A stretch of 43,800 nt of DNA from Phycisphaerae bacterium. GTDB lineage: Bacteria > Planctomycetota > Phycisphaerae > UBA1845. Shown here piece after piece: positions 1 through 43,652 of this stretch. The stretch covers positions 1-43,800 of the forward strand of contig JAUIEW010000009.1 in the NCBI GenBank assembly GCA_030429365.1. Reading direction: 5' to 3'. A program made the translations under genes and the position numbers. Under the pieces are notes generated by a model. That model searched no databases and was not told the DNA's origin. It saw nothing but the letters and a program-made list of their open reading frames with translations. Each line of letters opens with the position of its first letter. The stretch's first letter is position 1.

Positions 1-361
1 AGGACGCAACCGCCGCCGCATCAACACAGACGGCTTGATCAAATGGATCGCTGGATTCCGCAAGGTACAGACTGCTGCTGACCCTCTCGGAGAAACCCGC
101 CGCATCATCGAGGGCAGCGGCGGCGTGCGCTTCAGTTGGCGCACACGCGATACTCCAGATCGTGCCAACAACCAATACCGCCCCGACCGCGATCGCCGCG
201 ACCAGTAACCATGGCATCTGCCAACCGGACAACCGGGCAGCCAACACAAACACGGCAAAACCGGCAGCCCCCCACGTCGCAACGCGCGCGGTCGTCGAGA
301 ACCAGAGATTCATCCACAACCGCGATCGGGCACGGGCAACTTGTCGCTTGACGTCAGACAT
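1..361 (-). CDS. Membrane protein, N-terminal part, cut by the window edge
   Basis: Reading the minus strand from an ATG at 361-359 gives an uninterrupted frame of 120 codons that runs off the left edge. It starts MSDVKRQVARARSRLW and has two hydrophobic segments, roughly residues 26-43 (ATWGAAGFAVFVLAA) and 49-72 (MPWLLVAAIAVGAVLVVGTIW). These are followed by AALDDAAGFSERVSSSLYLA. Basic N-terminus, two membrane spans and an 'ALD..AGF.ERVSS.L' segment is a layout I know from large planctomycete membrane proteins of unknown role, loosely like DUF4175 proteins. That family link is an impression only. GGGAG about 11 nt before the ATG is an acceptable ribosome binding site. The C-terminal bulk of the protein is outside the window. 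Confidence 0.75.
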   Translation of the reverse strand, partial: MSDVKRQVARARSRLWMNLWFSTTARVATWGAAGFAVFVLAARLSGWQMPWLLVAAIAVGAVLVVGTIWSIACAPTEAHAAAALDDAAGFSERVSSSLYLAESSDPFDQAVCVDAAAVAS

Positions 362-750
362 TTTCAGTGAGTCTCCCAATCCTGCGACTTGAAATCGAAC
401 GAGCGAAGCGCCGTCCGCCGATTCGACACGTGTTGGTCAAACGCATCCCAATTTTCCGGACAAACAGCCAACTATGATTCTACGTCGCGGTACCTTACCG
501 GGCAACCGAAATGACCTCGCCTCAGCGATGAGAGGCCACCAAGCTATACCGCCACCCATGCGCCGCGCACCGACATCAGCCCCTACATATAAGTACGTCA
601 AATCGATCTATATGTCGCAGACCAACTCTGTGTGTTTGTGTATACCCCAGATATAGTCATTGGATACGCGATTATCGGTGGCTGGGGTGATCCCCAACTC
701 TGTTTTTTCGACTTCGCAACCACTCCGATACGGTTACAATCAAAACCATC
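362..750. other. Intergenic region between divergent genes, AT-richer
   Basis: No convincing gene lies here. The genes on either side point outward, so promoters for both should lie inside. The stretch at about 590-665 is noticeably AT-rich compared with its surroundings. A short hairpin, TGGGG-tgat-CCCCA at 683-696, is followed by a run of six T at 702-707. It has no gene upstream on the plus strand, so I do not call it a terminator. Confidence 0.5.
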
Positions 751-22556: not shown

Positions 22557-22645
22557 GATTTGCGCGTTTGGATTCTCACGTCGGCCCGGTTACGCTATCG
22601 GGGTTACGCCGTTGGCCATGGCCGCATGGATTGGAGAGATCGATC

Positions 22646-23833
22646 GTGGAAAATCAGACAGGACCACTCGAATTGAATTCGACAGATACCAATCGTAGGT
22701 GGCGATTGCTTGGCGTGTCTGCGCTTTTGATCGCGTGCATCGTCGGCGCATGCAGCCACGTCACCGAGCCGATCACAACAACCGACCAATCCACAACTGA
22801 CGCTACAGCAACCGAGGACGCATCGGATCCGATGCTTTCCGTGAATACGCTCCTACCCGCGCCGGCTGATTTCGCATTGAACCGCATCGGTTCTGACGAT
22901 TTTCCGATTCCCCCGCATGCCAAGTATCTCGAAGGCGTGCGCATCTGCATCGATCCCGGTCACGGCGGCGACGCCCATAAGCATGGTTACAAACGCGGTC
23001 CAACCGGCGTCCGCGAAGCCGAAATGAACTTAAGGGTGGCTCAATACCTGCGCGATTTGCTCGTCCACGTCGGTGCGGAAGTCAAACTGACCCGCGAAGA
23101 CGACAACGATTTAAGCCTGGCCGACCGGGCGAAAGTGGCTGACGATTGGGACGCCGATCTGTTTATCAGTTGCCACCACAACGCCACCAGCAACGCCGAA
23201 GCCAACCGCACGACGGTGTGGTATCACGGGACGGTGGACGATCGGCCCGACAATCTCGACCTTGCAAGGCACCTGTGCGAAGGTTTGTTCGACTCGCTGC
23301 AATTACCGCAATTGACGGGCATTCCGCTCAAGAGCGATCAGTTGATGTACGAGTCTGGTTTCGGCGTGCTGCGGGCGGCCAACAAAACCTCGGCGCTCTG
23401 CGAAACGTCGTTCTACACCAACCCCGAAGAAGAGCAGCGTCTGCGTGATCCGGAATACAACCTGCGGGAAGCGTACGGAATGTTCATGGGGCTGGCGCGA
23501 TACGCAGCCGGCGGACTGCCGACGGTGAGCATCATGCATATCAGCGCGGAATCATCATCGGACGTCGCCGAGCGCACCATCGTCTTTCAACTGGATGACG
23601 GCCTGCGCTCACGCAAGGCGTGGGGTAGCGATCGATCAATGATTTTGCGGGATTCCATCGCCGTCCGGATTGACGGCGAGCGCGTGGACCACGAATTTCT
23701 TCCGAACACCTACGTGTTGAAGGTCAACATTCCTGACGAGGTTGCAAGCGGAACGCACGACGTGTCGGTTCAATTCCAGAACATGTTCAAACACGCCAAC
23801 ACCACGCCGAACTTTGCGATCATCCTCGACTGA
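22646..23833 (+). CDS. N-acetylmuramoyl-L-alanine amidase, lipoprotein
   Basis: Amidase_3 fold, cutting the bond between muramic acid and the stem peptide of peptidoglycan. From GTG 22646 the product is 395 residues. GGAGAG about 8 nt upstream selects this start over a TTG at 22568. Lipoprotein signal ALLIACIVGAC with Cys36. Catalytic region: ICIDPGHGGDA (His106), GVREAEMNLRVAQYL with Glu124, VKLTREDDNDLSLADRAKVAD, and LFISCHHNA (His177/178), then ALCETSFYTNPEEE with the catalytic Glu. The last 90 residues are an added beta domain (VFQLDDGLRSRKAW ... GTHDVSVQFQN). It lies next to lysA, the enzyme that consumes diaminopimelate, but the inverted repeat separates the two genes. Confidence 0.9.
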   Translation: MENQTGPLELNSTDTNRRWRLLGVSALLIACIVGACSHVTEPITTTDQSTTDATATEDASDPMLSVNTLLPAPADFALNRIGSDDFPIPPHAKYLEGVRICIDPGHGGDAHKHGYKRGPTGVREAEMNLRVAQYLRDLLVHVGAEVKLTREDDNDLSLADRAKVADDWDADLFISCHHNATSNAEANRTTVWYHGTVDDRPDNLDLARHLCEGLFDSLQLPQLTGIPLKSDQLMYESGFGVLRAANKTSALCETSFYTNPEEEQRLRDPEYNLREAYGMFMGLARYAAGGLPTVSIMHISAESSSDVAERTIVFQLDDGLRSRKAWGSDRSMILRDSIAVRIDGERVDHEFLPNTYVLKVNIPDEVASGTHDVSVQFQNMFKHANTTPNFAIILD

Positions 23834-23842
23834 TTCGCGCGA

Positions 23843-26524
23843 TTACATGCCCAATCGCCATTGCAACTGGCCGAAGTCTTCGGCGTCGACGTCGTCGTCT
23901 TCGTCCAGATCAAATGCGGCGCACGATGGATCAACGGGTCCGGCATCAGGTCCGGTCATGCAATCGCCGTATGCTTCAAAGTCTGTCAGATCCGCAACGT
24001 TGTCACCGTTGTAATCGCCCGGTACGCAAATTTGCTCGATGGAATCGATGTAGAGCGTGTGCGGACCGGCCCCACCCGTCGAGGCAATCGCGATGTGTTC
24101 CAGTGTCCCCATACCGGTCGCGCTCGACAACGCGCTGTCACCCGTCATTGCCAGCACCGGATCAATCTGCGGTTCAAATGTCAGCGTTTGCCACTGGCCC
24201 GGCGACGCATTCACCAGCACACCCTGCGGCGAACCGGAAACCGTGTTGGCCGCTCCGACCCATTCAATGGTCCCCGACGTTCCGCCATCCGAACCGATCG
24301 GACCGCTGGCCGAGGTTTCTCGCAGACCAACGCAAATCCGAACAGCCCCACTATCCAGCCGCACGCGGAGTCGAATTGGCCGAGCAAAATCAACCGTCGG
24401 GTTCGGCAGCGTCGCCACGTTCGACGTGGTCAAGCGCAACCACCGCTGGAGGTCGTTATCCACCCATTGCCATTCAACGCGGGAGACATTGCTACCCTCG
24501 AACGCAGTGACATCGGCTGTCACTTCAGCTTCGTTGGGCGAGGTCAGCAGATCGCTGCTCGTTGAGCCCGAGTACGTCGGCGGGCGGAACATCACGTCTG
24601 CCCCCGTGTTTGTCGGATAACCTTCAAACCCGGTGAGCAAAACCTTCTGGCAACCGCTGGGCCCTTCACCCAGCGCGACGTCGGTCATGTTCACCTCTCC
24701 CGCATTAACGGTAAGGCTGCCCACCACCACCGGTTCAAACCCGCTCTTGGTCACGGTGATCGAATACTGCCCCGGGGTGAGTTTCAAAAATGCATAGAAA
24801 CCGGTCCCATCCGACAACACCGATCGCGTTTCCGGTCCGGTCAGATCGATCGTGGCTTGATAGATGCGGTTGCCATAGATCGGATCGTTGGGCAGCGATG
24901 CGTCGGTGATCGTTCCCGCGAGGATGCCTTGCGTCGGTGTTTCCTTCCAGGGCATCAGCGGCGTGGATGCCGGCGCGGGATAGGCCTGCGCCTTCATCGA
25001 CGAGAAGAACGCCGCGTCGGTTGAACTACCGTCGTTCGTGGACTGATATTGGTATTGGCAGTGACCGTCGGCTCCCATCGACCGCACATCGAGGATCTGC
25101 GTCAGCGTGTTGGCCACCGTGTTGACGTAGCAACCTTGCCCGATGTACGCGTGCCGATCGCCCTTGTGCTCAATCGCGTACTGCGCCCAGTCGCGATACT
25201 GATCGGCGTGCGTGTTTTCGTTCTTGTAGTTCATCGGAAGCAGCGCATCGACGATGCCCTCTTCCATCCAGCCGCGCCAGTCCTGGAAGACATAGTTGTA
25301 CGTATCGCTGCCGGTGAAATTGTTGAGATTTCCCCAGGTAATACCATCCCCGGTCAGAACGACATGCGGCTTGGTGGCTTGGATGTGAACGTAAATCTTA
25401 CGGACGAGGTCGGTCACCTGATTGCGTCGCCACTGCCCCCACGCGCTCCACAACGGCGAAGCGGATGACGTCGGTGGAAGTTCTCCAAACTCATCGAAGA
25501 AGCGCTGCTCGCTGATCGGGTTGTAACCCCACTCCGATCCTTGATAGCGGATGTAGTCGAGATTGAAGCCATCGACGTCGTAGTTGTCGATGATGTCCAT
25601 CGCGACGGAAAGCACGTAATCCTGAACGGCAGGAATGCCCGGATCGAGATAGTAATTGTTGCCTTCCAGAACCGCGCCGGTGTTGTCAGTCATCAGCCAA
25701 TCGGGATGTTGCGCAAAAATGTGCGAACTCGGCGGTGATGGAAACAGCACGCTCCAGATGCGGTAGGTCACGATCCATGGATGCACTTCAATGTTGGCCG
25801 CGTGCGCCTTGGTGATCATGTCGGCCAGTGCGTCGTAGCCCGATGCGACGTTGGTCGCCTGCGGTTCATACGCCGAATCGTAGTAAGCATCGCCGGCTTT
25901 TCGCACCTCCGGAATGATGACGTTGTAGTTGTTGGCCGCGAGCGTGTTGATCATGTTCGTCGTTTGAGTGGGATTAAGGAAACCACTTCCCCACGAGTAC
26001 GCCCACATCGCCCGCCACTCACCCGCACCGCGAAACGACATCGCGTCCGCAACGATGATCTTGCCGGGCTCTGCCGCACTGGTCAGCGTGACCGATCCGC
26101 TCGTTCCTGCATCGAAAGTGAACGTGCCCAACACAAACCAGGTCGAACCGTTGATCTGTTGATTGACGACGACGTTGGTCGAACCGCCCGCATGACTGAC
26201 CGTGTACGTCGCATCGCTGGGACGCGACGTTCCGGTCGAGCGATACCACACCGCAACTTCGTAACTGCCCGTAGCCGGAATCTGCGGGCGCCATTCAGCC
26301 GTCGCCGGCGTCGCGTCGTCCGTACTCTTGTGGCGATAGTCGGTCAGCCACTGCCCCGTGGCATCGAACGTACTCCATGTGCCCGAAGGAATGCTGAATC
26401 CGTCGTGGGAGTTGTCGACGATGATGGTCTGAGCCTGTGCAGGCCCGCTGATCGCCATCACGGATGCCAAGAATAGGGCACACAACACCCAACGCGATCG
26501 ATCATGATTTAAGTGAGATTGCAA
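23843..26524 (-). CDS. GHL10-type glycoside hydrolase with golvesin-like and dockerin-like domains
   Basis: 893 residues from a TTG at 26524. Signal peptide cut after AQA (31). Residues about 33-165 are a golvesin C-terminal-like domain (IIVDNSHDGFSIPSGTW ... TATYTVSHAGGSTNVVVNQQ ... KIIVADAMSFRG). Residues about 170-500 are the GHL10/DUF187 barrel: MWAYSWGSGFLNPTQT, VIIPEVRKAGDAYYDS, IEVHPWIVTYRIW, VDGFNLDYIRYQGSEWG and VDALLPMNYKNENTH, where Asp and Glu of NLDYIRY and IPEVR are likely catalytic or close to it. Residues about 535-620 are a carboxypeptidase-regulatory-like fold (ILAGTITDASLPNDPIYG). The C-terminus, about 835-893, is a dockerin-like EF-hand pair (GDYNGDNVADLTDFEAYGDC, DLDEDDDVDAEDFGQLQ). 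The protein is secreted. Polysaccharide substrate unknown. Convergent with the amidase gene, 9 bp apart. Confidence 0.88.
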   Translation of the reverse strand: MQSHLNHDRSRWVLCALFLASVMAISGPAQAQTIIVDNSHDGFSIPSGTWSTFDATGQWLTDYRHKSTDDATPATAEWRPQIPATGSYEVAVWYRSTGTSRPSDATYTVSHAGGSTNVVVNQQINGSTWFVLGTFTFDAGTSGSVTLTSAAEPGKIIVADAMSFRGAGEWRAMWAYSWGSGFLNPTQTTNMINTLAANNYNVIIPEVRKAGDAYYDSAYEPQATNVASGYDALADMITKAHAANIEVHPWIVTYRIWSVLFPSPPSSHIFAQHPDWLMTDNTGAVLEGNNYYLDPGIPAVQDYVLSVAMDIIDNYDVDGFNLDYIRYQGSEWGYNPISEQRFFDEFGELPPTSSASPLWSAWGQWRRNQVTDLVRKIYVHIQATKPHVVLTGDGITWGNLNNFTGSDTYNYVFQDWRGWMEEGIVDALLPMNYKNENTHADQYRDWAQYAIEHKGDRHAYIGQGCYVNTVANTLTQILDVRSMGADGHCQYQYQSTNDGSSTDAAFFSSMKAQAYPAPASTPLMPWKETPTQGILAGTITDASLPNDPIYGNRIYQATIDLTGPETRSVLSDGTGFYAFLKLTPGQYSITVTKSGFEPVVVGSLTVNAGEVNMTDVALGEGPSGCQKVLLTGFEGYPTNTGADVMFRPPTYSGSTSSDLLTSPNEAEVTADVTAFEGSNVSRVEWQWVDNDLQRWLRLTTSNVATLPNPTVDFARPIRLRVRLDSGAVRICVGLRETSASGPIGSDGGTSGTIEWVGAANTVSGSPQGVLVNASPGQWQTLTFEPQIDPVLAMTGDSALSSATGMGTLEHIAIASTGGAGPHTLYIDSIEQICVPGDYNGDNVADLTDFEAYGDCMTGPDAGPVDPSCAAFDLDEDDDVDAEDFGQLQWRLGM

Positions 26525-28601: not shown

Positions 28602-28706
28602 CGGGGATCCTGTCGAAAATTTCAGTTCATTGTTCTTACCACGCGACTGCGGATGTGCCAAGCGCGTGCTCGTCGGTTGGGCATCGTCAGCAATGCGACT
28701 GCAATA

Positions 28707-28740
28707 AAAAAAGGAGGCCGCCACTTGGGCGACCTCCTCT
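28707..28740 (-). terminator. Rho-independent terminator of the first PEP-CTERM gene
   Basis: On the minus strand AGGAGG-t-CGCC-CAAGT-GGCG-g-CCTCCT followed by seven T. It lies 50 nt past the stop of the PEP-CTERM gene, upstream of the sulfatase-like gene. Confidence 0.88.
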
Positions 28741-28789
28741 AGTTTTGAAACATGTGACAACGAGTGTCACCTGTCAATGCCAAGGCGAC

Positions 28790-29725: not shown

Positions 29726-29947
29726 TGTTCTCCTCCTAATCGTGAAGATCTTATGCTCCGAGAGCTGTTGCCTTGCATGAAAGACGTTTAGGAAATCATC
29801 AACAAACGAGCAGCGCAGCTTTCGCGCGCTCGATACGTTCAAACCCAATCTCGTCTCTCTCTCGTCGCATCGGGCAACGTTTCAGGTGCTCAAACCCAAA
29901 ACGACCCGCCAGCCGAGGATCGGCTGACACTTCTTCCCTGACATGCT
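29726..29947 (-). ncRNA. Putative structured 5'-UTR leader, copy A
   Basis: A leader of about 222 nt from the predicted transcript start to the ATG of the PEP-CTERM gene. Elements shared with copy B at 31089-31315: GACCCGCC (plus strand 29903-29910) next to a 7-bp stem (29910-29926); a long-range helix ATGC-NN-CGAGAG (29870-29859) with CTCTCG-NN-GCAT (29764-29753) closing a loop of 94 nt; and TTAGGAGGAGAA before the start. Coding density is absent, and I do not recognise a known riboswitch. Whether it senses something or only protects the mRNA is open. Confidence 0.6.
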
Positions 29948-30143: not shown

Positions 30144-31088
30144 TTAGCGACGACGACGCAGCATGGTCACGCCACCGAGGGCGAGAAGCGCCAAGCTTGC
30201 TGGCTCGGGCGTGACGACGATGTTGTCGATCAAGGTCACGTTGAGCAGGCTGTCGTTCGGGTCTGACGACGAGCTGTTGTTCGTGTCGTGGTGCCCGAAA
30301 AGGATGTTGCTTCCACCAAGGGTCACCGTACCCGTATCGACCGTGGCAATCACCAAGCCGTCGATTGACCAGGTTGCGATACCACCCGAAACGTCGATAA
30401 CCACGTCACGCCAGGCAAAAGCAATCTCGCCAGCGTCGGTCACACCAGTCTGACCGGGGAACGCCGTCACCTGGTCGCCAGGGGCCGAGTCGCCACCGAA
30501 ACCGGCGTAGTATGAATGGCTGCCGTTGCGGTTTCCGGTGCCTGCCGCTGCAAAAATCGGGTCGCCATCGACATAACCAGTGGTCGCCGCTGACGAATAA
30601 ACGCGATAGTCGACCGATGAGCCACCATCGAGCGTCACGCCGAACATCAGGCTGTCGTTGGGATTGCCCGGGACGACCGGAACATTGCCAGCCGTACCGA
30701 TACCCATCATCGAAAGCTGGGTCGTACCGCTTCCACCTGCCCCCAAAGGACCAACGTAGTTCTGCCACATCTGGAACGACACCGTGTAGTCGCCCGTGAA
30801 GCTTTGGCCATTCGGTGAAACGCTGAATCCGCCGAAGACGCCGTCCACGTTATTGGCGGTCATCTTCAGACCAGTGGTTGTGCCGCCACCTGCTGACGGA
30901 ACTCCGATCGCCGAATAGTCATAAAAGAAGTCGGCGAGGATGTCGGTGGTGCCACCGTCGTTGACGGTCCAGTTGGCCGTGTTATCGACGTCGAAGTTTT
31001 CTTCGTACAGGGCGCCAAAAGCAGTCGGTGCTGCCAACGCCATCACACCAGCGGCGAACAGCGACCGCGATTTTGAAACCTTACCCAT
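30144..31088 (-). CDS. PEP-CTERM surface protein (lectin-like body), paralog
   Basis: 314 residues from ATG 31088. GGAGG lies 6-7 nt upstream, so the earlier in-frame ATG at 31124 is not preferred. Signal peptide MGKVSKSRSLFAAGVMALAAPTAFG. Body: YEENFDVDNTANWTVNDGGTT, ADFFYDYSAIGVPSAGGGTTT, PNGQSFTGDYTVSFQMWQNYVG, DVVIDVSGGIATWSIDGLVIATVD, LIDNIVVTPEPASLALLALGG and RRRR at the end. The body closely resembles residues about 1245-1510 of the large protein at 33863-38629 (DNFDTDTSANWNI, GQSFGGDYVMRFDMWMNSVG). PEP-CTERM tail as in the neighbour. It is exported and then processed by an exosortase. It has the same promoter and leader as the gene at 28790-29725. Confidence 0.9.
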   Translation of the reverse strand: MGKVSKSRSLFAAGVMALAAPTAFGALYEENFDVDNTANWTVNDGGTTDILADFFYDYSAIGVPSAGGGTTTGLKMTANNVDGVFGGFSVSPNGQSFTGDYTVSFQMWQNYVGPLGAGGSGTTQLSMMGIGTAGNVPVVPGNPNDSLMFGVTLDGGSSVDYRVYSSAATTGYVDGDPIFAAAGTGNRNGSHSYYAGFGGDSAPGDQVTAFPGQTGVTDAGEIAFAWRDVVIDVSGGIATWSIDGLVIATVDTGTVTLGGSNILFGHHDTNNSSSSDPNDSLLNVTLIDNIVVTPEPASLALLALGGVTMLRRRR

Positions 31089-31315
31089 GATTCTCCTCCT
31101 AAAGTGATTGAATCTCGAATGCATCGAGAGCTAATGACCGTCCAAACAGACGCTTGAGCATAAACACAAATACAAGTGCAAAACGCAGCGCGTCTGCACT
31201 TGCCGATACCAACTCAACTCGTCTCTCTCTCGCTGCATCGGGTGGGTTTCAACGTGCGTCACACGTGCCCGACCCGCCAACCTCAAATCGGTTGGCAATT
31301 CTTCCTTGGGATGCA
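31089..31315 (-). ncRNA. Putative structured 5'-UTR leader, copy B
   Basis: A leader of about 227 nt. GACCCGCC (31271-31278) is shared with copy A. The stem next to it, GCCAACC/GGTTGGC (31276-31296), has other bases than in copy A but keeps seven pairs, a sign of compensatory change. The long-range helix ATGC-AG-CGAGAG (31238-31227) with CTCTCG-AT-GCAT (31130-31119) closes 96 nt, nearly the same distance as in A. Inside lies an extra hairpin, AAGTGCA...TGCACTT. The ribosome binding site TAGGAGGAGAA is also shared. Confidence 0.6.
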
Positions 31316-33195: not shown

Positions 33196-33862
33196 CGCAA
33201 TTGCTCCGGCCCCCTCCAAATTGGCTCTAGGGGCGATAAAATTCATAATTGAGAACAAAACTAAATCACAGCCGCCCATGGAGATGCCTGTATGGGCGTC
33301 CGCCGTTTTCTAATCCTAGCGATTGGCCATGGCGTACAGCAAGCCTGAACTGCCGCGGCGGTATTTCACATGAGGGAGCCTGCTTGGCTTGTCCCGATAA
33401 CAGCGGCTCCACCAACCATGGCAAGTCAGCCGAGGGCGGCGACGTACAGATTTTTCGCAAGCAATAGCTTGTATCAGGCCCCCCAATCCACGCATAATGG
33501 AGGTGAGGTGAAAGAAGTGGACTGAGGGGAGCCAGGCATTTCTTCAGCCACGCATCCGTATTGAAGAAGCGATAGCTCAAACTTGGGCATGCCACCACGG
33601 CGAAGCCCATGCAGCGTGGATCAAGAGTGAGCCATCAATGGTCGGACATGCACACAAAGGCAAGTGCCGACTCTTCTATTAATTCGGTTTTCGACTGAAA
33701 TCATTTTCCGCATGGTGAATCGATCAGTTGCGTTCGTTTCCCATCGGGATGTCTTGAACAGAAAAACGTCATGGGATCACACAGTCTTTCCCTTCAGGGA
33801 ACTTAAGGAATCGAATGAATTCGGCAGCATTCAAAACTCATATCAGTTTAGGAGAGCGGCTC
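33196..33862. other. Long region without a clear gene
   Basis: 667 bp between two outward-facing genes. A 114-codon minus-strand frame (33610-33266) and a 72-codon plus-strand frame (33249-33467) are open, but neither has a ribosome binding site, a signal or a pattern I know. The first is oddly rich in Cys, Pro and Trp. A stem TTCTTCA...TGAAGAA lies at about 33539-33567. The stretch could be decayed mobile DNA or a non-coding RNA. Promoters for both flanking genes must lie inside, but none is clear. Confidence 0.4.
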
Positions 33863-36800
33863 ATGCTCACACGCAAGACATTGGCACGATTGGTATTGGT
33901 GGTTGGAGTGGTCGGGGTAACCGCTACCTCGTTCATTTCGCCAGCGATGGGACAAACATCGTATTGTCTTTCCAAATTTCAACAGCAGGAAGAGTTCGAT
34001 TGCGGAAGCCGGGGCGCATCGGTTTGCGATCCGTTTACCGGTGTCGGCGCCGAAGTCATCTGGCGTCAGCCTGACTTCTCGGGTTCGACGGATGGAATCA
34101 TTCCCGGATCCACGAATACCCTGCCTTCTATTCCGATCAACTACGCGCAGCGCGTTCCCAATACCGGCGACTTCACCGGTATTGCGTCGCCTTGCTACGA
34201 ATTGACCATTGCGTGGGGAGATCCAACGGATGCCACCACCACCGGTGCTCGCCTCACGACTGCCGGCGCCACCAACCTCGCCAGTCCGTCAATTCACCTT
34301 GACGGTGTTGTTCGGTTCAAGATGGCGGTGACGGCATTCAAGTTCAATCCGGTCACCAATTACTTCGGTGCGCAGGTTCCGCTCGAGGTCTCCGGGGACG
34401 CAGCGATCTTGATGTGCATGGCCGTTCGCGAGACCGGTACCAATGCATCGCTCGGTTCAACCGATACCGGTACGGGCGACTTGGAATACGTTTACCTGCC
34501 TGGCTCGGAAGTCATCCCGGCACCGACGAATGGCTTCATGGGCGAATTCCCCCCAGGCGGAAAGCGCTTCATGGCCAGCAACGAATTCTGGCCTCCCGAC
34601 GCCAGCGAATTCACGACTGTTGAATTCGATCTCAGCACGCTGGACTCAAGCCGCGTTCGTGGATTTGCCAACGATAGCGATGGCGTAAACACCGCCGGTG
34701 ATGGCGTCCTCGACGCAACGAGCAACGGCGACGGCGTGAACCGCGGCACCATTGAATCGCTCATCTTCTCGGCGGACACAGCCAATTCAGATGGCGAATA
34801 CTTCTTTATCTACATCGACGATGTCGAACTTGAATCACCGGTCGACGACGAGACGCTTGCCGCCCCGCGTGTTCAGGGACCAATCTTCTCAACCGATACG
34901 ACCGCAACCGTCGCTTCGAAATTCAACCTTTGCGACATGTCGGACGTCACTGAGGTTGAACTCTTCATCAACGGCGTTTCGGCGGTTGGTGGTGTGGACG
35001 TGACGGCCAACCCGGTTGCACCGGTCAACGGTGTGGCCACGTTTACGGGCTTGTCGCTCATCGCTGGCGACGTCATCACCGCAACCCAGACCGACACGCA
35101 AGGTTCGGGCGATGTGACGAGCCCGCTTTCCAAGCCAGTCGAAGTGTTCGGCCCAGGCGTTATCCTCGCCGACAACTTTGACAACTACTCAAGTCAATTG
35201 GAACTCAACGAATTCTGGAGCGATTCGATTGGTTCACCAAATCCAGCCGATGCCAAGTTGTTGCTGACCGCTGGCGGTGGCGCGAGTTGCCCGAACTATC
35301 TCCAGGAAGACAACCCCGCCGGCGCCAATGCCGCGCGTTTGTATCGTTCGATCGGATCGGCCAATGGTTCAGATGACGATCCGATGTTCGTCACCTGGAA
35401 CTTCAAATACACAGACGCCAATACGCTCAATGGCCGGACCCGCTTCGAATTGGCGAGGTTTGCCAGCGGTACTTTCTCGACCGGCGCACGCAGTGAAGGA
35501 ACGGCTGGCATCACGATGTTCAACCAGATCGCTGGTGGCCTGCTGACCGATTACAACCTGACGCTTCGCGTCACGGACAACTCAGAGGTGGCTGGGGACC
35601 TGACTTCAAATGGATGGACCCTCGCTTCCGAAAACTACCGCATCGCCAGTGGCGTGCCCCGCACGATTGACACCTGGCACAAGATGCAGATTGAGGTCCG
35701 CTCGGATGTGATCAACTACTACATCGACGACGTGAACGTGAACCCGGCCGGTTATGAAGATGGCGTTCCGCGCCCGAACGCGCTGCCGTATACGCACGTG
35801 ATCGTCGGCGAAGGATTCAGCACCAACGATCCGGTCATGTACTTCGATAACGTATCGGTGACCATCGGTTCCAATGGTCTGACGCACCCGTTCGCTGATC
35901 CGCTTCCGGATCCGCCGACCATCCAAGAGCCGATTTTCCCGGGCGACACCGTCGTCACGTTGACGGACATCAGCACGAATGCGACTGAAGTCCGAGTCAT
36001 TCTTGATGGAACGACGACAATCGCGACGGTCTCGACGACTGGATTTGAAACGACCACGATTGACGTGACGGTTCCGGCACTTGCGTTTGAAGATTCGCTT
36101 ACGGCCGAACAGACGGTTGGTGGCCTGTCCAGTTGCGAATCCGCAGCGGCAGTTGCTTTGATTCCGACGGTAACAATTCTCGACGACGTATTGGAACCGG
36201 ATGGAACGGTTGTCAATGTTGGCGGCGTTGAGGAAGGTGACGCTGACGAAATCCGCGTCTACGCCGACGGCACAACCTTGATCGGTACTTTGGTTTCGCC
36301 CGCGACGGATGCGGTTGCTGTTACCGTGTCACCGCTGGTTGAAGGCGAATTGATCACTGCAACTCAGGTTATCGGTGGGCTCGAAAGTGAGCATTCACCA
36401 GCCGTTCTCGTACGCTTCCGTCCGCCGCTCAGTCTGACCGTCACCGTTGCAATCGACGAAGACGGCGTCAGCAGTGACGGCAACGCGGACTTTGAGTTCG
36501 TCGGTGCTGCACAGCGGATTGGTTCTGCACCGGTTGGAAAGGCGCTCGAACCGCAGACGGGCGTGTGGCAGCGATTCGAGTACTCATTGACGGGCGGCGA
36601 CCCTGTCATCCAGTTCCTGGATAACATTGGAACGCCGAACCAGCTTGATGCCGGAGGCGGCAACTACAGCATCGATTCGATCTTCTTCAGCATCAACTCG
36701 AATGGTCCTGTGAGTGCTGGTCCGTACACCGTGTACATCGACCACACGTTCTACATCGATTCGGGTGGACAGGAAGTTCTCATTGCTGACGCAGAGATTG

Positions 36801-38629
36801 CCAACCCATATCCGCTCTTCCGCGGACAGAGTTCTGGTATCCTCGCAAGCAACTCGAGCACGCTTACCGGTGAAACCAGCATGGACGGTTCGAACGCCAC
36901 CAAGGTTGACTGGGAATGGCCCGATGAAGACGCGGGTAACGTGACGTCGGTGTACCGTCCAGGTGTTGCGTTCCCGGATGACGCCTTGGCCGTTGGTTTC
37001 TACGTGTTGTTCAACGACTTCACGACGAATGCGGTCGCGGCTCCGACACTGCTTGAGCCCAACGTCGGCGACATTCCGTTTGTCCGCCTCAATGACGTGG
37101 ACCCGGCTGCAACGTCGGTTGAGTTGTTCCGCAACGGCGAATTCTTTGCCTCGGCTGTTCCGGGAGGCACGTCTGTCGACATCAACGTCACCACCAATAG
37201 CGTTGTCCTTGACCAGTACGTGGCACGCCAGACCACTCCGGACGGTACGAGCGAACTCGGATTCCCGCGTGGAATCACGCTGCCGCCGGCGCCGACGATT
37301 GTGTCGCCTGTCTTTGAAGGCAGCACGTCAATTGACGTCAATGACATCCTTCTGGTTGCGAATGCGACAACCACGCAGGTGCAGGTCTCTCGCAATGGTG
37401 CTGTGATCGGTACGGTTAACACCACCGGTTTCGAGAGCGCTTCAGTGACTGTTTCGCCTGTACCGAGCGTGAATGAAGGAGACATCTTGACGGTCACGCA
37501 GACGGTCAACGGTTTGGTCAGTCCCGATTCCGAACTTGCAATCGTTGAAGGTTCTGCGACGCCTTGTGGCATCGCCTTCTCTGATAACTTCGATACCGAC
37601 ACATCCGCAAACTGGAACATCAATGCCAGTTCTGCTGACACGTCAGCGATATTCGCCTTTGACTACAATGCGGGCGGTCTGCTGATTCCGCCGTCACCAA
37701 ATGGTGGAGGCACCACACTCGGATTGCGACTGGCTGCCAACATCAGTGCGCCGAACTCGGTGGAGGCCATCACGCTTTCGCCAGTCGGTCAGAGCTTTGG
37801 TGGCGACTATGTCATGCGGTTTGATATGTGGATGAACTCCGTTGGACCGTTCCCAGGCGGAGGCGCCGGATCGACTGAATTTGTCACCGCAGGTGTGGGT
37901 TATGACAACACAACTGTCAACGCCGCGTTTGGTAACGGTGCAGGTGGTTGGTTTGCTGTCAGCGGCGAAGGCGGTTCGGGTAGCGACTACCACGCTTACA
38001 AGAACTCGGCGCTGCAGGACGTTGGTTCGTTCTTTGCCGGCTCGCGTAACGCATCTGCGATCTACTACAGCGGCATTGGCGGAGTTGACGTTGGTTCGCT
38101 TGGTCAGAATGCTGCATTCCCGACCACGCAGACTGGTATCCTGCAGTCAGGTGCTGCGGGCTTCAGGTGGCATGAGATGACGATCTACCGCAGCGGCAGC
38201 AAAGTGCGTTGGGTCCTCGATGATCTCCCGATCGCCGAAATCGACGCGAGCGTCGGTGCGACGTTCCCGCTTGCTGGAAATATCAGCATCGGCTACAGCG
38301 ATCCGTTCACGTCGTTGGCGACCGAACCAGACCTGATCTTCGGTCTGATCGACAACCTGGTTGTCGAAGGATTCGGTGGTGGCGACTGCAACGCCAACCT
38401 CGTCGGTGACGACTGTGAATCGCTTGGCAGCTTCGACTGGAATGCCGACGGCAATGTCGATGACGGTGACGTTGCAGGTTTGGCCGACTGCCTCGCCGGA
38501 CCGGGCACGTCACCTGCTCCGAGCGTGTCAGGTTGCGAATCAACGTGCCTGAATGTGTTCGACAGCGATGCCGACAACGACGTTGACCTTGTCGACTTCG
38601 CAGAATTCCAGGACACGGTCACACCGTAA
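33863..38629 (+). CDS. Very large secreted multidomain protein with Ig-like repeats, lectin-like domains and dockerin-like tail
   Basis: 1588 residues from ATG 33863, with AGGAG 8 nt upstream; ATG 33815 would add 16 residues. Signal peptide LVLVVGVVGVTATSFISPAMGQ. Five Ig-like units of about 80 residues alternate with jelly-roll domains. Each starts APT/PPT..P.F.G and ends GD..TATQ...G (APRVQGPIFSTDTTAT, PPTIQEPIFPGDTVVTL, IPTVTILDDVLEPD, APTLLEPNVGDIPFV, APTIVSPVFEGSTSIDV). The jelly-roll domains include GVILADNFDNYSSQLEL and, near residue 1245, DNFDTDTSANWNI, which is related to the PEP-CTERM proteins at 28790-31088. The last 70 residues are dockerin-like EF-hands (DWNADGNVDDGDVAGLADC, FDSDADNDVDLVDFAEFQ). 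Probably an adhesin or matrix protein binding glycans. It is followed by a strong terminator. Confidence 0.88.
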   Translation: MLTRKTLARLVLVVGVVGVTATSFISPAMGQTSYCLSKFQQQEEFDCGSRGASVCDPFTGVGAEVIWRQPDFSGSTDGIIPGSTNTLPSIPINYAQRVPNTGDFTGIASPCYELTIAWGDPTDATTTGARLTTAGATNLASPSIHLDGVVRFKMAVTAFKFNPVTNYFGAQVPLEVSGDAAILMCMAVRETGTNASLGSTDTGTGDLEYVYLPGSEVIPAPTNGFMGEFPPGGKRFMASNEFWPPDASEFTTVEFDLSTLDSSRVRGFANDSDGVNTAGDGVLDATSNGDGVNRGTIESLIFSADTANSDGEYFFIYIDDVELESPVDDETLAAPRVQGPIFSTDTTATVASKFNLCDMSDVTEVELFINGVSAVGGVDVTANPVAPVNGVATFTGLSLIAGDVITATQTDTQGSGDVTSPLSKPVEVFGPGVILADNFDNYSSQLELNEFWSDSIGSPNPADAKLLLTAGGGASCPNYLQEDNPAGANAARLYRSIGSANGSDDDPMFVTWNFKYTDANTLNGRTRFELARFASGTFSTGARSEGTAGITMFNQIAGGLLTDYNLTLRVTDNSEVAGDLTSNGWTLASENYRIASGVPRTIDTWHKMQIEVRSDVINYYIDDVNVNPAGYEDGVPRPNALPYTHVIVGEGFSTNDPVMYFDNVSVTIGSNGLTHPFADPLPDPPTIQEPIFPGDTVVTLTDISTNATEVRVILDGTTTIATVSTTGFETTTIDVTVPALAFEDSLTAEQTVGGLSSCESAAAVALIPTVTILDDVLEPDGTVVNVGGVEEGDADEIRVYADGTTLIGTLVSPATDAVAVTVSPLVEGELITATQVIGGLESEHSPAVLVRFRPPLSLTVTVAIDEDGVSSDGNADFEFVGAAQRIGSAPVGKALEPQTGVWQRFEYSLTGGDPVIQFLDNIGTPNQLDAGGGNYSIDSIFFSINSNGPVSAGPYTVYIDHTFYIDSGGQEVLIADAEIANPYPLFRGQSSGILASNSSTLTGETSMDGSNATKVDWEWPDEDAGNVTSVYRPGVAFPDDALAVGFYVLFNDFTTNAVAAPTLLEPNVGDIPFVRLNDVDPAATSVELFRNGEFFASAVPGGTSVDINVTTNSVVLDQYVARQTTPDGTSELGFPRGITLPPAPTIVSPVFEGSTSIDVNDILLVANATTTQVQVSRNGAVIGTVNTTGFESASVTVSPVPSVNEGDILTVTQTVNGLVSPDSELAIVEGSATPCGIAFSDNFDTDTSANWNINASSADTSAIFAFDYNAGGLLIPPSPNGGGTTLGLRLAANISAPNSVEAITLSPVGQSFGGDYVMRFDMWMNSVGPFPGGGAGSTEFVTAGVGYDNTTVNAAFGNGAGGWFAVSGEGGSGSDYHAYKNSALQDVGSFFAGSRNASAIYYSGIGGVDVGSLGQNAAFPTTQTGILQSGAAGFRWHEMTIYRSGSKVRWVLDDLPIAEIDASVGATFPLAGNISIGYSDPFTSLATEPDLIFGLIDNLVVEGFGGGDCNANLVGDDCESLGSFDWNADGNVDDGDVAGLADCLAGPGTSPAPSVSGCESTCLNVFDSDADNDVDLVDFAEFQDTVTP

Positions 38630-38824: not shown

Positions 38825-41800
38825 ATGAGACGTTATCGAAGCAGCACAGCGACCGTCTGTTTTGACAATAATCGTTTCCAACATCATTTCGCCCGATTGT
38901 CCGCGATGGCGTGTTTGCTGCTTTTCGCTTCCGCTACTTCGGGACAGACCCAAGGCCCAGATGAATCGGAAAGCCTGTCGATCCCACAGCAAACAGATCT
39001 CATCACCGGGCTCAACGCTCGTTTGACGGCATTGGACAAGGACGGCGAGTTTTCTTTTCTGTCCGGCGCTCGGGTGGATCAATCGGATTGGGTTGGCAAC
39101 GTCTGTCACTTGAAGCTGACCATTCCGGCCTTCGCCAGTGCATCACCCGACATCGATGAGGTGCAGGAGCTCAGCGAAACGCTCACGAGTTCCATCCGAA
39201 GCGATCTTGACTTCGGCGGCGTCATTGTTCGGGTGCGGGCTGATGAGTTTGACACCTATCGATTGCTCGAAGACTTCGTCCCGGTGGTCGGACCGGGAAC
39301 GTATCCCCCGCTTCGTGAAGACGCCGCGATTCGTCCCGGTGAAAACGCCGCGACGCCGGATGAAATCGAGGCAATGCGCACGCTGGGTGGCCCCAGCGCC
39401 AACGCAGGAAATCAACCGACCGGCGCGCTGTCGGGCGTCGTCGTGTTTACAACTGCTGGACATGGATGGACGGCCAACACGAGTTCTTGGGGATTGCAAC
39501 GACCACTCCTTCTCGACATGGTCGAAGACTACGGCAACCTCGATCAGTTGAATTACTTTGTGAACTACTTGTTCAATGCGGGTGCGACTGTGGTCGCGTT
39601 TCGACCCGTTGGATACCAAGATGAAGAGGTGGTCCTCGATCAGGACGATCCCGGCGTGACGTATACCGGCTCATGGATCAACAGCGGATCGAGTCCCTAT
39701 TACGAAAACGGAACAACGAGCAGCGGTATCAACTATCGCTTCGCGGTGGTCAATGTGACGGAAACCGCAACCGCCCGCTACACCCCTAATCTTCCGACAT
39801 CCGACTACTACCCGGTCTACACTTGGGTGCTCGACTCGAACAATCGGACCCCTCAACTCTACCGAATCGCACACAGCGGAGGAACGACCGAGGTCCGGGT
39901 TGATCATCGCGTGGTTGGACGCGGCTGGGTCTACCTTGGTTCTTATTATTTCGAAGCCGGAACTGAAGGCTACGTCGAAATCAGCAACCAATCGACGGAG
40001 GGCGGAAACGTCATTGCCGACGCGATTCGCTTCGGTAACGGGATTGGTGATGTTGTCGGCGCCGGCCCTGGAACCATCAGTGGTTATCCGCGAGATGAAG
40101 AAGCCCAGCGATACTGGGCGGAAAGCGAAGCCGGGATCAATGCGGTCGGTATGCCCAGCACCATCTACAACTGCTGCAGCAGTGACAACAGCGACAATAT
40201 TTCGACAGCCGCCCGCTGGGCTCGCGAAATGAACAATACGACGTTCAACATCGATCGCTGGCGACGCATTTACCTCGAGTTCCACAGCAATGCGTCGAGC
40301 GGTGGCGCACGGGGTACGGTGGCACTCGTGACGGGAAACAACACCACCAATCAGACACAACTCGCCACGATTCTTGGTGACGAAGTCGAGCAGGACATGC
40401 TCATTCTCGACTCGGATTTCGAATTCTCCTGGGCAGCGCGGAGCAACCCGGCCAACGGTTCGTTCGGGGCAATCAGCACCACCGCCAACAGCAACGAATT
40501 CGACGCAACGATTCTTGAAGTTGCTTTCCATGACAACGCAACCGATGCGGCGCTACTGCTCGATCCCAAGGTTCGCGACGGCGTGGCTCGCTCCAGCGTT
40601 CATGGCCTCATCAAGTTCCTCAATGTCCAGCCGGGAAGCACGGTTCCGCTGGCGTTTGCGCCGACTCAACCGCGCAACCCGCGTGCGATTCACGATGGCA
40701 ACGGCGGCATCACCTTGTCCTGGGACACGCCTCTGGTCGGTGAAGCCCATGGTGACGCCCCCACCGGATACCGGGTCTACCGCTCAAGCAACGGTTATGG
40801 ATTTGATTCCGGAACCGATGTCGGTTTGACCAACTCGGTGACGCTCAATGATGTGCCGCCCTACACCACGACGTACTTTAGAATCGCGGCGTACAACGCG
40901 GGTGGGGAGTCTCTGCCGTCGATCACGATCGGTGCACGCGCCCGCCTCAATGGTCCGGCGAAGTACCTCATCGTCAACGGTTTTGATCGCGTATCACGCT
41001 CACAGAATCCGCGACAAGTCCTGGGCGGACTGGGCACGCAGCGTCGTCCCATTCTTCGCCACGTGAATTCATTCGACTACGTTGTTCAACATGGCGATGC
41101 GCTGGCCGAAGCCGGTGTCGATTTCGATTCGTGCCAGAATGAAAACATCATCAGCGGTGCGGTTGATCTGACCGACTACCAAGCTGTCCTGTGGATCTGC
41201 GGTGAAGAGTCTTCAGCCGACGATACCTTCAATGCAACCGAGCAAGCCCTCGTGACGACGTATCTCAATGGCGGCGGCAAGCTTTTCGTCAGTGGCGCCG
41301 AAATCGCCTGGGATCTCGACAACCTCGGCAACGGTGTGGCGTTCTACAACAACGCATTGAAAGCCGACTACGTCGGCGATGACGCCGGCACCTACAACGT
41401 GGGCGTGGTGGGCGGTTCCATCTTTGACGGGATCGGGTCATTTGCGTTTGACGATGGCTCGATTTTCTACGACTCGGAGTTTCCGGATCGACTTGGACCG
41501 GTCGGGGGCAGCACGGCAGCTCTGACTTATGTCGGTGGCACTGGTGGTACGGCGGCTGTCGTGTTCGACGGCGCATCGCAGGTGGTGAATCTGGGTTTCC
41601 CATTTGAAACGATCACATCGGAGTCGAGCCGGTTTGAGATCATGGAGGCGGTTGTCGATTTCTTCGACGTCGGAATCGATCTATTCGATCACGCGTCGTT
41701 TGTCGAATGCATGAACGGTCCTGACACAGGTACTACCCTGCCCGATTGCGGTCCCTTTGACTATGGCGCCGACAGTGATGTCGATCTCGATGACGAGCAA

Positions 41801-41827
41801 GTATTCCAGCAATTGTTTGCAAACTGA
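38825..41827 (+). CDS. Amidase-like protein split by a golvesin domain, with FN3, GATase-like and dockerin-like domains
   Basis: 1000 residues from ATG 38825. GGAGAG 9 nt upstream selects it over a GTG at 38747. Signal peptide ARLSAMACLLLFASATSGQ, with a long n-region. Residues about 204-265 and 405-590 look like the two halves of an Amidase_3 fold: VVVFTTAGHGWTAN (His213), the IYLEFHSNASSG strand, and ATILEVAFHDN. Between them lies a golvesin C-terminal-like domain, about 270-405 (TARYTPNLPTSDYYPVYTWV, YRIAHSGGTTEVRVDHR, GNVIADAIRFGNG). Then follow FN3 (about 640-730: ITLSWDTPL, YRVYRSSNGYGF), a class I glutamine amidotransferase-like domain, about 735-925 (KYLIVNGFDRVSR, YLNGGGKLFVSGAEIAWDL), and the tail DYGADSDVDLDDEQ. 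It is secreted and possibly a peptidoglycan or glycan hydrolase. Confidence 0.85.
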   Translation: MRRYRSSTATVCFDNNRFQHHFARLSAMACLLLFASATSGQTQGPDESESLSIPQQTDLITGLNARLTALDKDGEFSFLSGARVDQSDWVGNVCHLKLTIPAFASASPDIDEVQELSETLTSSIRSDLDFGGVIVRVRADEFDTYRLLEDFVPVVGPGTYPPLREDAAIRPGENAATPDEIEAMRTLGGPSANAGNQPTGALSGVVVFTTAGHGWTANTSSWGLQRPLLLDMVEDYGNLDQLNYFVNYLFNAGATVVAFRPVGYQDEEVVLDQDDPGVTYTGSWINSGSSPYYENGTTSSGINYRFAVVNVTETATARYTPNLPTSDYYPVYTWVLDSNNRTPQLYRIAHSGGTTEVRVDHRVVGRGWVYLGSYYFEAGTEGYVEISNQSTEGGNVIADAIRFGNGIGDVVGAGPGTISGYPRDEEAQRYWAESEAGINAVGMPSTIYNCCSSDNSDNISTAARWAREMNNTTFNIDRWRRIYLEFHSNASSGGARGTVALVTGNNTTNQTQLATILGDEVEQDMLILDSDFEFSWAARSNPANGSFGAISTTANSNEFDATILEVAFHDNATDAALLLDPKVRDGVARSSVHGLIKFLNVQPGSTVPLAFAPTQPRNPRAIHDGNGGITLSWDTPLVGEAHGDAPTGYRVYRSSNGYGFDSGTDVGLTNSVTLNDVPPYTTTYFRIAAYNAGGESLPSITIGARARLNGPAKYLIVNGFDRVSRSQNPRQVLGGLGTQRRPILRHVNSFDYVVQHGDALAEAGVDFDSCQNENIISGAVDLTDYQAVLWICGEESSADDTFNATEQALVTTYLNGGGKLFVSGAEIAWDLDNLGNGVAFYNNALKADYVGDDAGTYNVGVVGGSIFDGIGSFAFDDGSIFYDSEFPDRLGPVGGSTAALTYVGGTGGTAAVVFDGASQVVNLGFPFETITSESSRFEIMEAVVDFFDVGIDLFDHASFVECMNGPDTGTTLPDCGPFDYGADSDVDLDDEQVFQQLFAN

Positions 41828-41948: not shown

Positions 41949-43652
41949 ATGAGCAAACTCCGCACAGTGATTCTGGTTTCAATCATGGGGATCAGTCCCG
42001 CACTGGCTGCCCCTGTCGTGCGTTTGTCCGATGATTCGGGAACGATTTTTGAAGGCGCGATCGCCGACCGGGACTGGGGACGTCCGGTTGCCTCGGGCGA
42101 TCTTGATGGCGACGGCTGGGATGAGATCATCGTTTCAGCGTCCGAGGATTTTGGCGATGTGATGAGTTTCGTCTATGTGATGCGCGGTGGTCCCGATGCC
42201 ACCCAGCAGGGCATTGTCCAACTCATGCACGTCGGTGCCGACCTGACCATCAGCGGTGCCGCGCTGAATGACAACCTGGGTTCTTCAGTCACCACAGGCG
42301 ATGTCAATGGCGACGGTTACGAAGACCTCCTGATTTGCGCCTCGGGCGCTGATGCAGGGCCGCGTTTGCGCGCTGGTGTGGCGTATCTTCTCTATGGTGG
42401 GCCATCGTTCTTCGCCAGCAGCACGCGCGACATGGCGGTGGCATCCGACTGGGACGTGAAGATCGAAGGACCAGTCACGGGCGGCGACATGGGCGCAAGC
42501 CTGTTCTTCGGTGGCGGTGACTCTGAAGCGGCTGCGATCGGAAAGCTCAACCTAGACTCGTTCGGCGACATCGTTCTCGGTGTTCACCTGGCCAACGGAG
42601 CCGCCAGCGGCGCCGGTCGGGTGTATGTCATTCTGGGTGAAGCCTTCGCTTCTGGCACCACCCTTTCGCTGGCCAACGCCGCCCATTACGACACGCTGAT
42701 TCTGGGCAAGGGTTCGCTCGACGAACTCGGCGATGTCGTCAAGACCGGCGACCTCACCGGGGACGGCCTCGACGAGTTGATCATTCCCAACCGCAACTAC
42801 AGCCAGGCATCGTTGGCGGCAGAGGGGGCGGTTCTCATCATTCGCGGTCGCGCGGTTTGGCCCGCTTCGATTAACTTTGGCGGTACGCCAGCTGACATCA
42901 CTCTGCTCGGTATTAATCCTTACGACAATCTCGGCGAAGACGCCGCCCTCGGCGACTTCAACGGCGACGGGATTCTTGACTTGGCATCATCGGCGCCGGG
43001 CGTGAATCCGGGTACGCCTGACATCAACATCAACGACGGCGTCATCTACGGACTCTACGGATCCAACTCACTGCAGATCGGAACCATCACCATCGATTAC
43101 GCTAGCGCCATTCCGGCGTTTCTGATTCGCGGCGAATCCAATGAAAGCATGGGCGCACAGATTGCGGCCGGTGATTTCAATGGCGACGGTTACGACGACA
43201 TCGCGGCTGGTCAGCGTTTTGGCGGACCAAGCATCAACGGCACAATCGACATCGTCTTTGGACGAAACTTCACTGCCGGCCAAACTTTTGATGTCAACGT
43301 GAACACCGACGTTCGCATTGTGGGTAATCCGTCTGACCGGATTGGTTTCTCGATGGGCGTCGCCGATATGGACAGCAATGGCGCTGAAGAAATTGTCTTC
43401 GGCACGCCGTTCAATAACGGCTCGTTCCCGAACATTGCCGGTACTGCCTATGTTTTTTCCATCATCGATGGCGACTTTGACGCCAACGGTGTTGTGGATC
43501 TTGAGGACTTCGCGGTTTACCAGCAGTGTGCATCGTCACCAAGTATCGCCGTCCCCCCAGCCGATCCGTGCTACGTCTTCGACTTTATGGTCGATCAGAA
43601 TGTGGATGCGGGCGACATGGAAGGTTTTGTGGGTCAATTGGACGGACCGTAA
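41949..43652 (+). CDS. Secreted FG-GAP (integrin-alpha-like) repeat protein with dockerin-like tail
   Basis: 567 residues. Signal peptide MSKLRTVILVSIMGISPALA. Five or more FG-GAP blades form an integrin-alpha-type propeller with Ca loops D.DGDG.DE: VASGDLDGDGWDEIIVSA, VTTGDVNGDGYEDLLICA, VKTGDLTGDGLDELIIP, AALGDFNGDGILDLASSA, IAAGDFNGDGYDDIAAGQ and GVADMDSNGAEEIVFGTP. Residues about 510-567 are dockerin-like EF-hands (IDGDFDANGVVDLEDFAVYQQC, DFMVDQNVDAGDMEGFVGQ). GGAG lies about 14 nt before the ATG, rather far. It lies 121 bp behind the amidase-like gene on the same strand and may be cotranscribed. Function probably adhesion or scaffold. Confidence 0.9.
   Translation: MSKLRTVILVSIMGISPALAAPVVRLSDDSGTIFEGAIADRDWGRPVASGDLDGDGWDEIIVSASEDFGDVMSFVYVMRGGPDATQQGIVQLMHVGADLTISGAALNDNLGSSVTTGDVNGDGYEDLLICASGADAGPRLRAGVAYLLYGGPSFFASSTRDMAVASDWDVKIEGPVTGGDMGASLFFGGGDSEAAAIGKLNLDSFGDIVLGVHLANGAASGAGRVYVILGEAFASGTTLSLANAAHYDTLILGKGSLDELGDVVKTGDLTGDGLDELIIPNRNYSQASLAAEGAVLIIRGRAVWPASINFGGTPADITLLGINPYDNLGEDAALGDFNGDGILDLASSAPGVNPGTPDININDGVIYGLYGSNSLQIGTITIDYASAIPAFLIRGESNESMGAQIAAGDFNGDGYDDIAAGQRFGGPSINGTIDIVFGRNFTAGQTFDVNVNTDVRIVGNPSDRIGFSMGVADMDSNGAEEIVFGTPFNNGSFPNIAGTAYVFSIIDGDFDANGVVDLEDFAVYQQCASSPSIAVPPADPCYVFDFMVDQNVDAGDMEGFVGQLDGP

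Follow-up and report, generated by a model that had tools for sequence, protein, structure and literature searches.

A 43,800-nucleotide stretch of a Phycisphaerae bacterium genome (GenBank assembly GCA_030429365.1, contig JAUIEW010000009.1, positions 1–43,800, forward strand), referred to below as the window, encodes a 1000-residue protein in which an Amidase_3-type catalytic domain is split by a nested golvesin-type domain. The source assembly comprises 5.23 Mb in 455 contigs. Computation shows the nested fold, unchanging catalytic residues and an architecture that stays the same from phylum to phylum. We consider it fairly likely that the protein is secreted and that its Amidase_3 fold works as a zinc amidase on peptidoglycan, severing N-acetylmuramic acid (MurNAc) from L-Ala, with the golvesin insert holding wall glycan.

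The open reading frame (ORF), coordinates and strand given for this gene in an earlier note proved exact, as did the quoted motifs AGHGW (from residue 211, with H213), EFHSNA (from 485, with H487) and ILEVAFHDN (from 563, with E565). An alternative in-frame GTG start is possible 78 bases upstream of position 38825. The layout of the gene, followed by two other genes of the window, is:

38825..41827, + strand: nested amidase gene, 1000 aa (ORF and translation)
38825..38944, + strand: probable signal peptide, about residues 1–40 (read by eye from LSAMACLLLFASATSG)
39422..39622, + strand: Amidase_3 first half, residues 200–266 (hhalign to the window's canonical amidase; model)
39629..40036, + strand: Golvesin_C domain, residues 269–404, inserted after beta-2 (Pfam; genome match at the same bases; 6f2p)
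40046..40660, + strand: post-insert helix and Amidase_3 second half, residues 408–612 (Pfam 481–596; hhalign; model)
40667..40921, + strand: FN3 domain, residues 615–699 (Pfam, E = 5.4e-7)
40937..41659, + strand: GATase1-like domain without a nucleophile Cys, residues 705–945 (model and structure matches)
41666..41824, + strand: Asp-rich dockerin-like C-terminal tail, residues 948–1000 (matches at 16 other genome places)
22568..23833, + strand: ordinary, uninterrupted Amidase_3 protein (119.3 bits, profile 1–167 of 174)
23843..26524, − strand: GHL10 protein with N-terminal Golvesin_C (GHL10 161.5 bits, Golvesin_C 112.9 bits)

Pfam places Golvesin_C (PF25275) at residues 269–404 (E = 8.9e-29, 100.7 bits, profile 1–131 of 132), above the profile cut-off of 31.6 bits, which bears out the claim that a golvesin domain lies between two amidase halves. 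It also recovers the FN3 domain that had been seen downstream of the amidase and the related golvesin domain reported at the N-terminus of the GHL10 protein (golvesin at residues 34–164, GHL10 at 171–456). Of Amidase_3 (PF01520, curated cut-off 27 bits), Pfam sees only the second half, at residues 481–596 with 24.4 bits; the first half alone has no Pfam match, and an NCBIfam scan of the whole protein returned none.

Each half nevertheless matches the ordinary amidase of the window separately and in order. In hhalign comparisons of the family profile with that protein, the N-half reached a probability of 90.4%, the C-half 86.6% and both together 96.3%, against 0.4% for the golvesin segment and 0.2% for each of three column-shuffled N-halves. 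An AlphaFold model of residues 200–612, built from 37 sequences, brings both halves into one amidase domain (mean predicted local distance difference test score, pLDDT, 91; predicted template modeling score, pTM, 0.92). In the structural comparison (VIA-align), the model superposes on 4rn7 with Z 22.4 and 1.8 Å (180 aligned of 186 residues) over a range, 4..406, that spans the insert, so that the predicted structure contains the Amidase_3 alpha/beta fold; the next Amidase_3 structures are 7rag (Z 21.9), 9a7d (21.7), 5emi (21.1) and 1jwq (20.7). Because each half matches an ordinary amidase and the model is a confident single domain, the two halves belong together, as the earlier note had supposed. 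In a distant planctomycete relative (L066), deletion of the insert yields a continuous Amidase_3 match (profile 1–173, 61.7 bits); with the insert kept, the match is partial (profile 68–173, 55.8 bits). Amidase_3 matches 30 of the 37 rows of alignment A1 at E 0.01.

That two unrelated halves were joined by chance or by an assembly error has a practically negligible probability. Recognition of the C-half alone by Pfam would fit such an artefact, but the same order of parts recurs in relatives from several phyla, the fold is single and confident, and all 40 C-half places located in Planctomycetota genomes are nested; we rejected this candidate on these grounds.

Compared with Amidase_3/NALAA-3 amidases (4rn7, CwlV 1jwq, CwlD 7rag, AmiA 8c2o and AmiC 4bin), the nested family has the same fold (Z 19–22) and the same H, E, H and E positions. 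It differs by a golvesin segment of 135–182 residues (median 149) after beta-2, an extra helix after the invariant E426, and H569. The regulatory helix of AmiB and AmiC is inserted elsewhere in the amidase than golvesin.

Catalytic residues and distribution of the family

The following residues stand out in the alignment of the family (97 rows):

39461..39463, + strand: H213, putative zinc ligand 1 (97/97 rows)
39500..39502, + strand: R226, family invariant (97/97 rows)
39524..39529, + strand: E234, putative zinc ligand 2, and D235 (97/97 rows each)
40091..40102, + strand: R423..E426, just before the extra post-insert helix (E426 97/97 rows)
40283..40285, + strand: H487, putative zinc ligand 3 (97/97 rows)
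40517..40519, + strand: E565, putative catalytic Glu (97/97 rows)
40529..40531, + strand: H569, family invariant (97/97 rows)

A 65-row alignment was assembled from 36 relatives of the related-loci search and 28 from genome searches, which had to span query residues from at most 5 to at least 395 of 413, fragments and golvesin-only matches being excluded. H213, E234, H487 and E565 show no variation in these 65 rows, nor in the 97 rows reached by adding 32 rows of a Bacteroidota search, each of which had to cover positions from at most 25 to at least 425 of that run's query. The 97 rows collapse to 87 when those at least 90% alike are merged, and not all are independent, since L112 and L038 are the same gene. 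The four positions align with the H, E, H and E of the window's canonical amidase; we take their zinc-ligand and general-base roles from Amidase_3 chemistry. The zinc ligands looked for in the earlier note are thus in place as putative ones, and the Amidase_3-type family is described as zinc-dependent in a review (PMC6403190).

R226, D235, E426 and H569 are likewise invariant. E426 follows the insert and directly precedes a modelled helix (model residues 229–239), and the R423 position holds R in 79, K in 16 and S in 2 of the 97 rows. At the H569 motif, the window's canonical amidase has CETSFYTN.

These counts bear on a further alternative, in which the amidase fold is catalytically dead and serves as a lectin. 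A precedent is offered by the gut lectins Cbeg4 and Cbeg5 (KT336269.1 and KT336270.1), which a 2022 paper (PMC9166713) describes as built of a signal peptide, Fn3 and CBM6-CBM35-CBM36_like_2 (IPR033803), with no enzymatic domain. Had the domain died, some of the four residues should have been lost, yet they are unchanged in 97/97 rows, and this makes the alternative very improbable.

The related-loci search returned 42 loci. Taxon labels, taken here and below from database records or metagenome-assembled genomes (MAGs), place those included in the tree in Planctomycetota, Verrucomicrobiota, Sumerlaeota, Lentisphaerota, Kiritimatiellota, Saprospiraceae, Myxococcota and Acidobacteriota (Thermoanaerobaculia), with Pseudomonadota represented by one Lysobacterales MAG and an Alphaproteobacteria bin. 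Besides Planctomycetota, nested copies were found under the MAG or record labels Verrucomicrobiota, Sumerlaeota, Myxococcota, Acidobacteriota and Bacteroidota; a locus labelled Lachnospiraceae (L050) has a 38-residue match only and was not counted as nested. Within the genome collection, the three closest loci share 87–92% identity over the core; two are labelled Phycisphaerae/Phycisphaerales and one Alphaproteobacteria.

Among 392 sampled Planctomycetota genomes, 107 match: 45 places in 40 genomes (the window's included) start in the amidase N-half, and the other 67 genomes have golvesin-type partial matches. Probing the same 392 genomes with the C-half only, without golvesin, located 40 places in 35 genomes, and 40/40 coincide with nested copies (within 1 kb on the same contig). 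Therefore no uninterrupted member of the subfamily was found in this Planctomycetota sample, the one phylum probed in this way (single-sequence C-half probe, E 0.001). In Bacteroidota, the phylum of a Saprospiraceae MAG, 42 of 296 sampled genomes match, 28 with the nested core and 14 with golvesin only.

The tree of 42 rows unites the four Bacteroidales copies in one clade, apart from the Saprospiraceae copies, which group with those of Myxococcota and Acidobacteriota. The window gene and a paralog from its own genome (contig C147) fall into two branches of a Phycisphaerae-dominated clade. The nested amidase is a conserved family across several phyla and not a single curiosity.

Two copies (L009 and L020) from the MAG IP29b_bin.190, labelled Alphaproteobacteria, stand among the Phycisphaerae copies in the tree, one beside the window gene (87% identical) and one beside the C147 paralog. 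This bin is probably mislabelled or mixed.

Position and partners of the golvesin insert

The golvesin part of the model (65..207) resembles the C-terminal module of xanthan lyase 6f2p in sequence and fold (VIA-align Z 19.8, 2.1 Å, 135 residues, 31% identity). In 6f2p this module ends a xanthan enzyme (chain positions 904–1036 of 1040), whereas in the window protein it is nested within an amidase. Weaker structural matches are CBM35 modules and MiXBM (7ehg), presumably the same as MiCBMx, at Z 10–12. Four golvesin positions, D399, G372, G404 and G406, are invariant in 97/97 rows.

In the model (strands 7–12, 56–59, 282–288 and 361–367), the insert branches off the sheet behind beta-2; the other three strands carry H213, H487 and E565 at their ends. 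If these strands are parallel, as is usual for the Amidase_3 fold, an insert after beta-2 would be on the catalytic edge of the sheet; from this topology we infer a location near that edge or the substrate groove. The idea in the earlier note of a glycan-binding module placed over the active site has this topology as its basis and is partly supported.

Glycan binding by the insert is plausible from its likeness to the 6f2p module, and the company that golvesin domains keep points the same way. All eight golvesin matches in the own genome (E 0.001) are joined to Amidase_3 (2, nested), GHL10 (3), the phosphodiester glycosidase NAGPA (2) or S13 (1), and in the window the golvesin-GHL10 gene (23843–26524, −) adjoins the ordinary amidase gene (22568–23833, +). 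For a wider sample, 199 genomes were searched; the 30 with the highest scores, the own genome among them, contributed a single locus each, and the remaining own loci were added. The 40 golvesin ORFs of this sample, from 37 loci, have as partners Amidase_3 in 15, Amidase_2 in 8, GHL10 in 7, NAGPA in 2 and S13 in 1, counts made without an ORF-by-ORF check of domain overlaps. Amidase_2 and Amidase_3, unrelated folds that act on the same bond, share golvesin with GHL10, and it can be argued from this that the module reads wall glycan. With partners that are mostly peptidoglycan enzymes, the insert probably binds wall glycan.

In three loci (L133:745-2658, L134:889-2835 and L151:406-1884), Amidase_2 is followed by golvesin without nesting, two of the three also having fn3. 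In two planctomycete cytochrome proteins (L154:346-3282 and L158:85-3087), golvesin lies between PSCyt2 and PSD1, another case of golvesin placed between parts of one protein.

DigH of E. coli is, we assume, a GHL10 protein, and the GHL10 model has matches in E. coli, consistent with this. In E. coli, amidases leave behind denuded glycans; the glycosyl hydrolase DigH takes part in breaking these down, and SPOR domains bind them (PMC12288456). A review table of wall-binding partners of such amidases names LysM, AMIN, PGB1, SPOR, SH3 and others, golvesin not being listed in the part available (PMC6403190). No link between a golvesin domain and an amidase was found in the literature searched, which consisted mostly of titles and the beginnings of abstracts, with subscription journals outside its scope.

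An insert that is a structural or protein-contact module without sugar binding, in an amidase of otherwise normal catalysis, seems quite unlikely. Its invariant D399, G372, G404 and G406 could be structural, but MiCBMx and PspCBM84, the latter only a possible relative of golvesin, are reported to recognise xanthan (PMC10049358), and a glycan array showed binding by the isolated IPR033803 domains of Cbeg4/5, with a glycan motif (PMC9166713).

Several observations weigh against a wall amidase with a glycan-holding insert. Depending on the stretch given, the window protein scores 24.4, 26.7 or 27.7 bits with Amidase_3, around the cut-off of 27, and removal of the insert gives 27.9 bits with a match still confined to profile 69–173. 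The partner sample is non-random and favours high-scoring golvesins, locus ends truncate some of its ORFs, and the same 40 ORFs include PSCyt/PSD1 (2) and an FAD oxidoreductase (1) as partners. Among solved structures, the closest golvesin relative is part of a xanthan enzyme and not of a wall enzyme, and the family-specific invariants R226, D235, E426 and H569 suggest a groove unlike that of ordinary amidases. The last two points, together with 7ehg (MiXBM) as the next relative, favour an active zinc amidase on another substrate, such as a glycopeptide or an amide-substituted extracellular polysaccharide, with the insert targeting that exopolysaccharide in the manner of its xanthan relatives. 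We regard this as rather unlikely, since wall amidases have the same fold and the same four catalytic positions and golvesin also occurs on Amidase_2 and S13 wall enzymes.

In the wall-amidase reading, the protein would be exported, and its golvesin part would grip the glycan strand of the wall, or sugar exposed after peptide removal. A zinc centre beside the insert would then cut the MurNAc–L-Ala bond and strip the stem peptides. Since binder and cutter form one body, the action may be processive. The FN3 domain and the catalytically dead GATase1-like domain would be spacer and assembly modules, and the target wall could be the cell's own or that of dead or rival cells.

C-terminal modules and related genes of the genome

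The earlier description of a GATase-like domain after FN3 held as to fold. The model of residues 705–945 (pLDDT 88, pTM 0.87) is GATase1-like, the closest folds being GH42 and related glycosidase domains and ThuA-like/GATase1 proteins (Z 13–16.5). Pfam did not support the assignment (ThuA in 1/42 rows, DUF4960 in 2/42), and a sequence search of the domain against the PDB gave chance-level matches only (E 0.59 and worse). A nucleophile-elbow Cys, at the position we assume from the GATase1 family, occurs in 0/42 rows, which limits the assignment to the fold. The domain was found in 60 of the 64 relatives behind the 65-row alignment (L002, among the four lacking it, is truncated by a contig edge) and in 31 of 32 rows of the Bacteroidota run, some matches being partial.

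The own genome holds several related genes. One (L004:274-3105, contig C59) combines an S13 D-Ala-D-Ala carboxypeptidase with the same GATase1-like domain and golvesin, and by eye ends in a dockerin-like tail. The paralog on contig C147 is 50% identical over residues 26–664, and a contig-end fragment on contig C345 with the same C-terminal domain (query 693–999), convergent to another golvesin-GHL10 gene, is perhaps the rest of it. The dockerin-like tail of the window protein (about 50 residues, 41666–41824) has matches at 16 more sites across the genome, and the neighbouring genes at 33815–38629 and 41949–43652 also close, as judged by eye, with such a tail, which may serve for sorting or anchoring. 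Elsewhere in the window, neighbouring PEP-CTERM proteins (28790–29848 and 30144–31124, −) lie beside a sulfatase gene (26709–28760).

Relatives annotated as xanthan lyases or lectins

Four Bacteroidales records match the window protein nearly in full; both annotated ones (Bacteroides finegoldii and Parabacteroides distasonis) are named "xanthan lyase", and the other two carry no annotation there. The proteins so named (WP_154395863 and WP_195399325) share the nested amidase across 96% of the core query, along with the catalytic residues and the C-terminal domain; they differ from the window protein in being about 26% identical to it and in reading SHQ at the FHD motif. Pfam scans of the window protein and these two copies detected no polysaccharide-lyase family, and of 6f2p the window protein matches only the C-terminal module. 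The name seems to have been taken from relatives of the golvesin module and not from the enzyme fold, probably because the split hides the enzyme. Across 31 Bacteroidota copies (31 of 32 rows, L112 being left out), Pfam at E 5e-6, about the Amidase_3 cut-off, finds Golvesin_C in 31/31, fn3 in 20/31 and Amidase_3 in 3/31. The nested gene also occurs in Bacteroidales "plasmid" records (L081–L084), perhaps pieces of chromosome; one, NC_022111, measures 1.77 Mb.

As Pfam sees it, the nested-amidase family resembles the architecture of Cbeg4/5, which we compared by description only. On that basis Cbeg4/5 may be unrecognised amidases. PMC9166713 gives the Cbeg5 construct as residues 21–957 and reports that Cbeg5 acts on myeloid immune cells. 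It also calls the architecture specific to commensal Bacteroides; the nested-amidase family is wider, which counts against the link.

A bolder proposal, which we hold only tentatively, is that gut Bacteroidales and environmental proteins filed as xanthan lyases or lectins are peptidoglycan amidases hidden by a nested golvesin domain that reads wall glycan as SPOR does; the family would then probably include Cbeg4 and the immune-active Cbeg5, judging by architecture. Golvesin_C would correspond to SPOR in function, and Amidase_2, S13 and GHL10 (DigH-like) enzymes would have it as well. The SPOR fold is unrelated to golvesin. The comparison is one of analogy only, SPOR being reported to attach to denuded wall glycan (PMC12288456). 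In its boldest form, the insert and the R423/E426 helix, with its invariant E426, would be a lid that opens only when golvesin grips a glycan strand.

The kind of enzyme is known; what surprises is the nesting that hid it. It reveals a systematic blind spot of annotation, in which an enzyme split by an inserted module drops below profile cut-offs and is then, it seems, named after the insert. Denuded or intact wall glycan becomes a concrete candidate ligand for the golvesin domain. If the proposal is true, "xanthan lyase" proteins of gut commensals would be wall amidases, perhaps Cbeg5 among them, and if Cbeg5 is an amidase, part of its immune effect could stem from enzyme activity on peptidoglycan.

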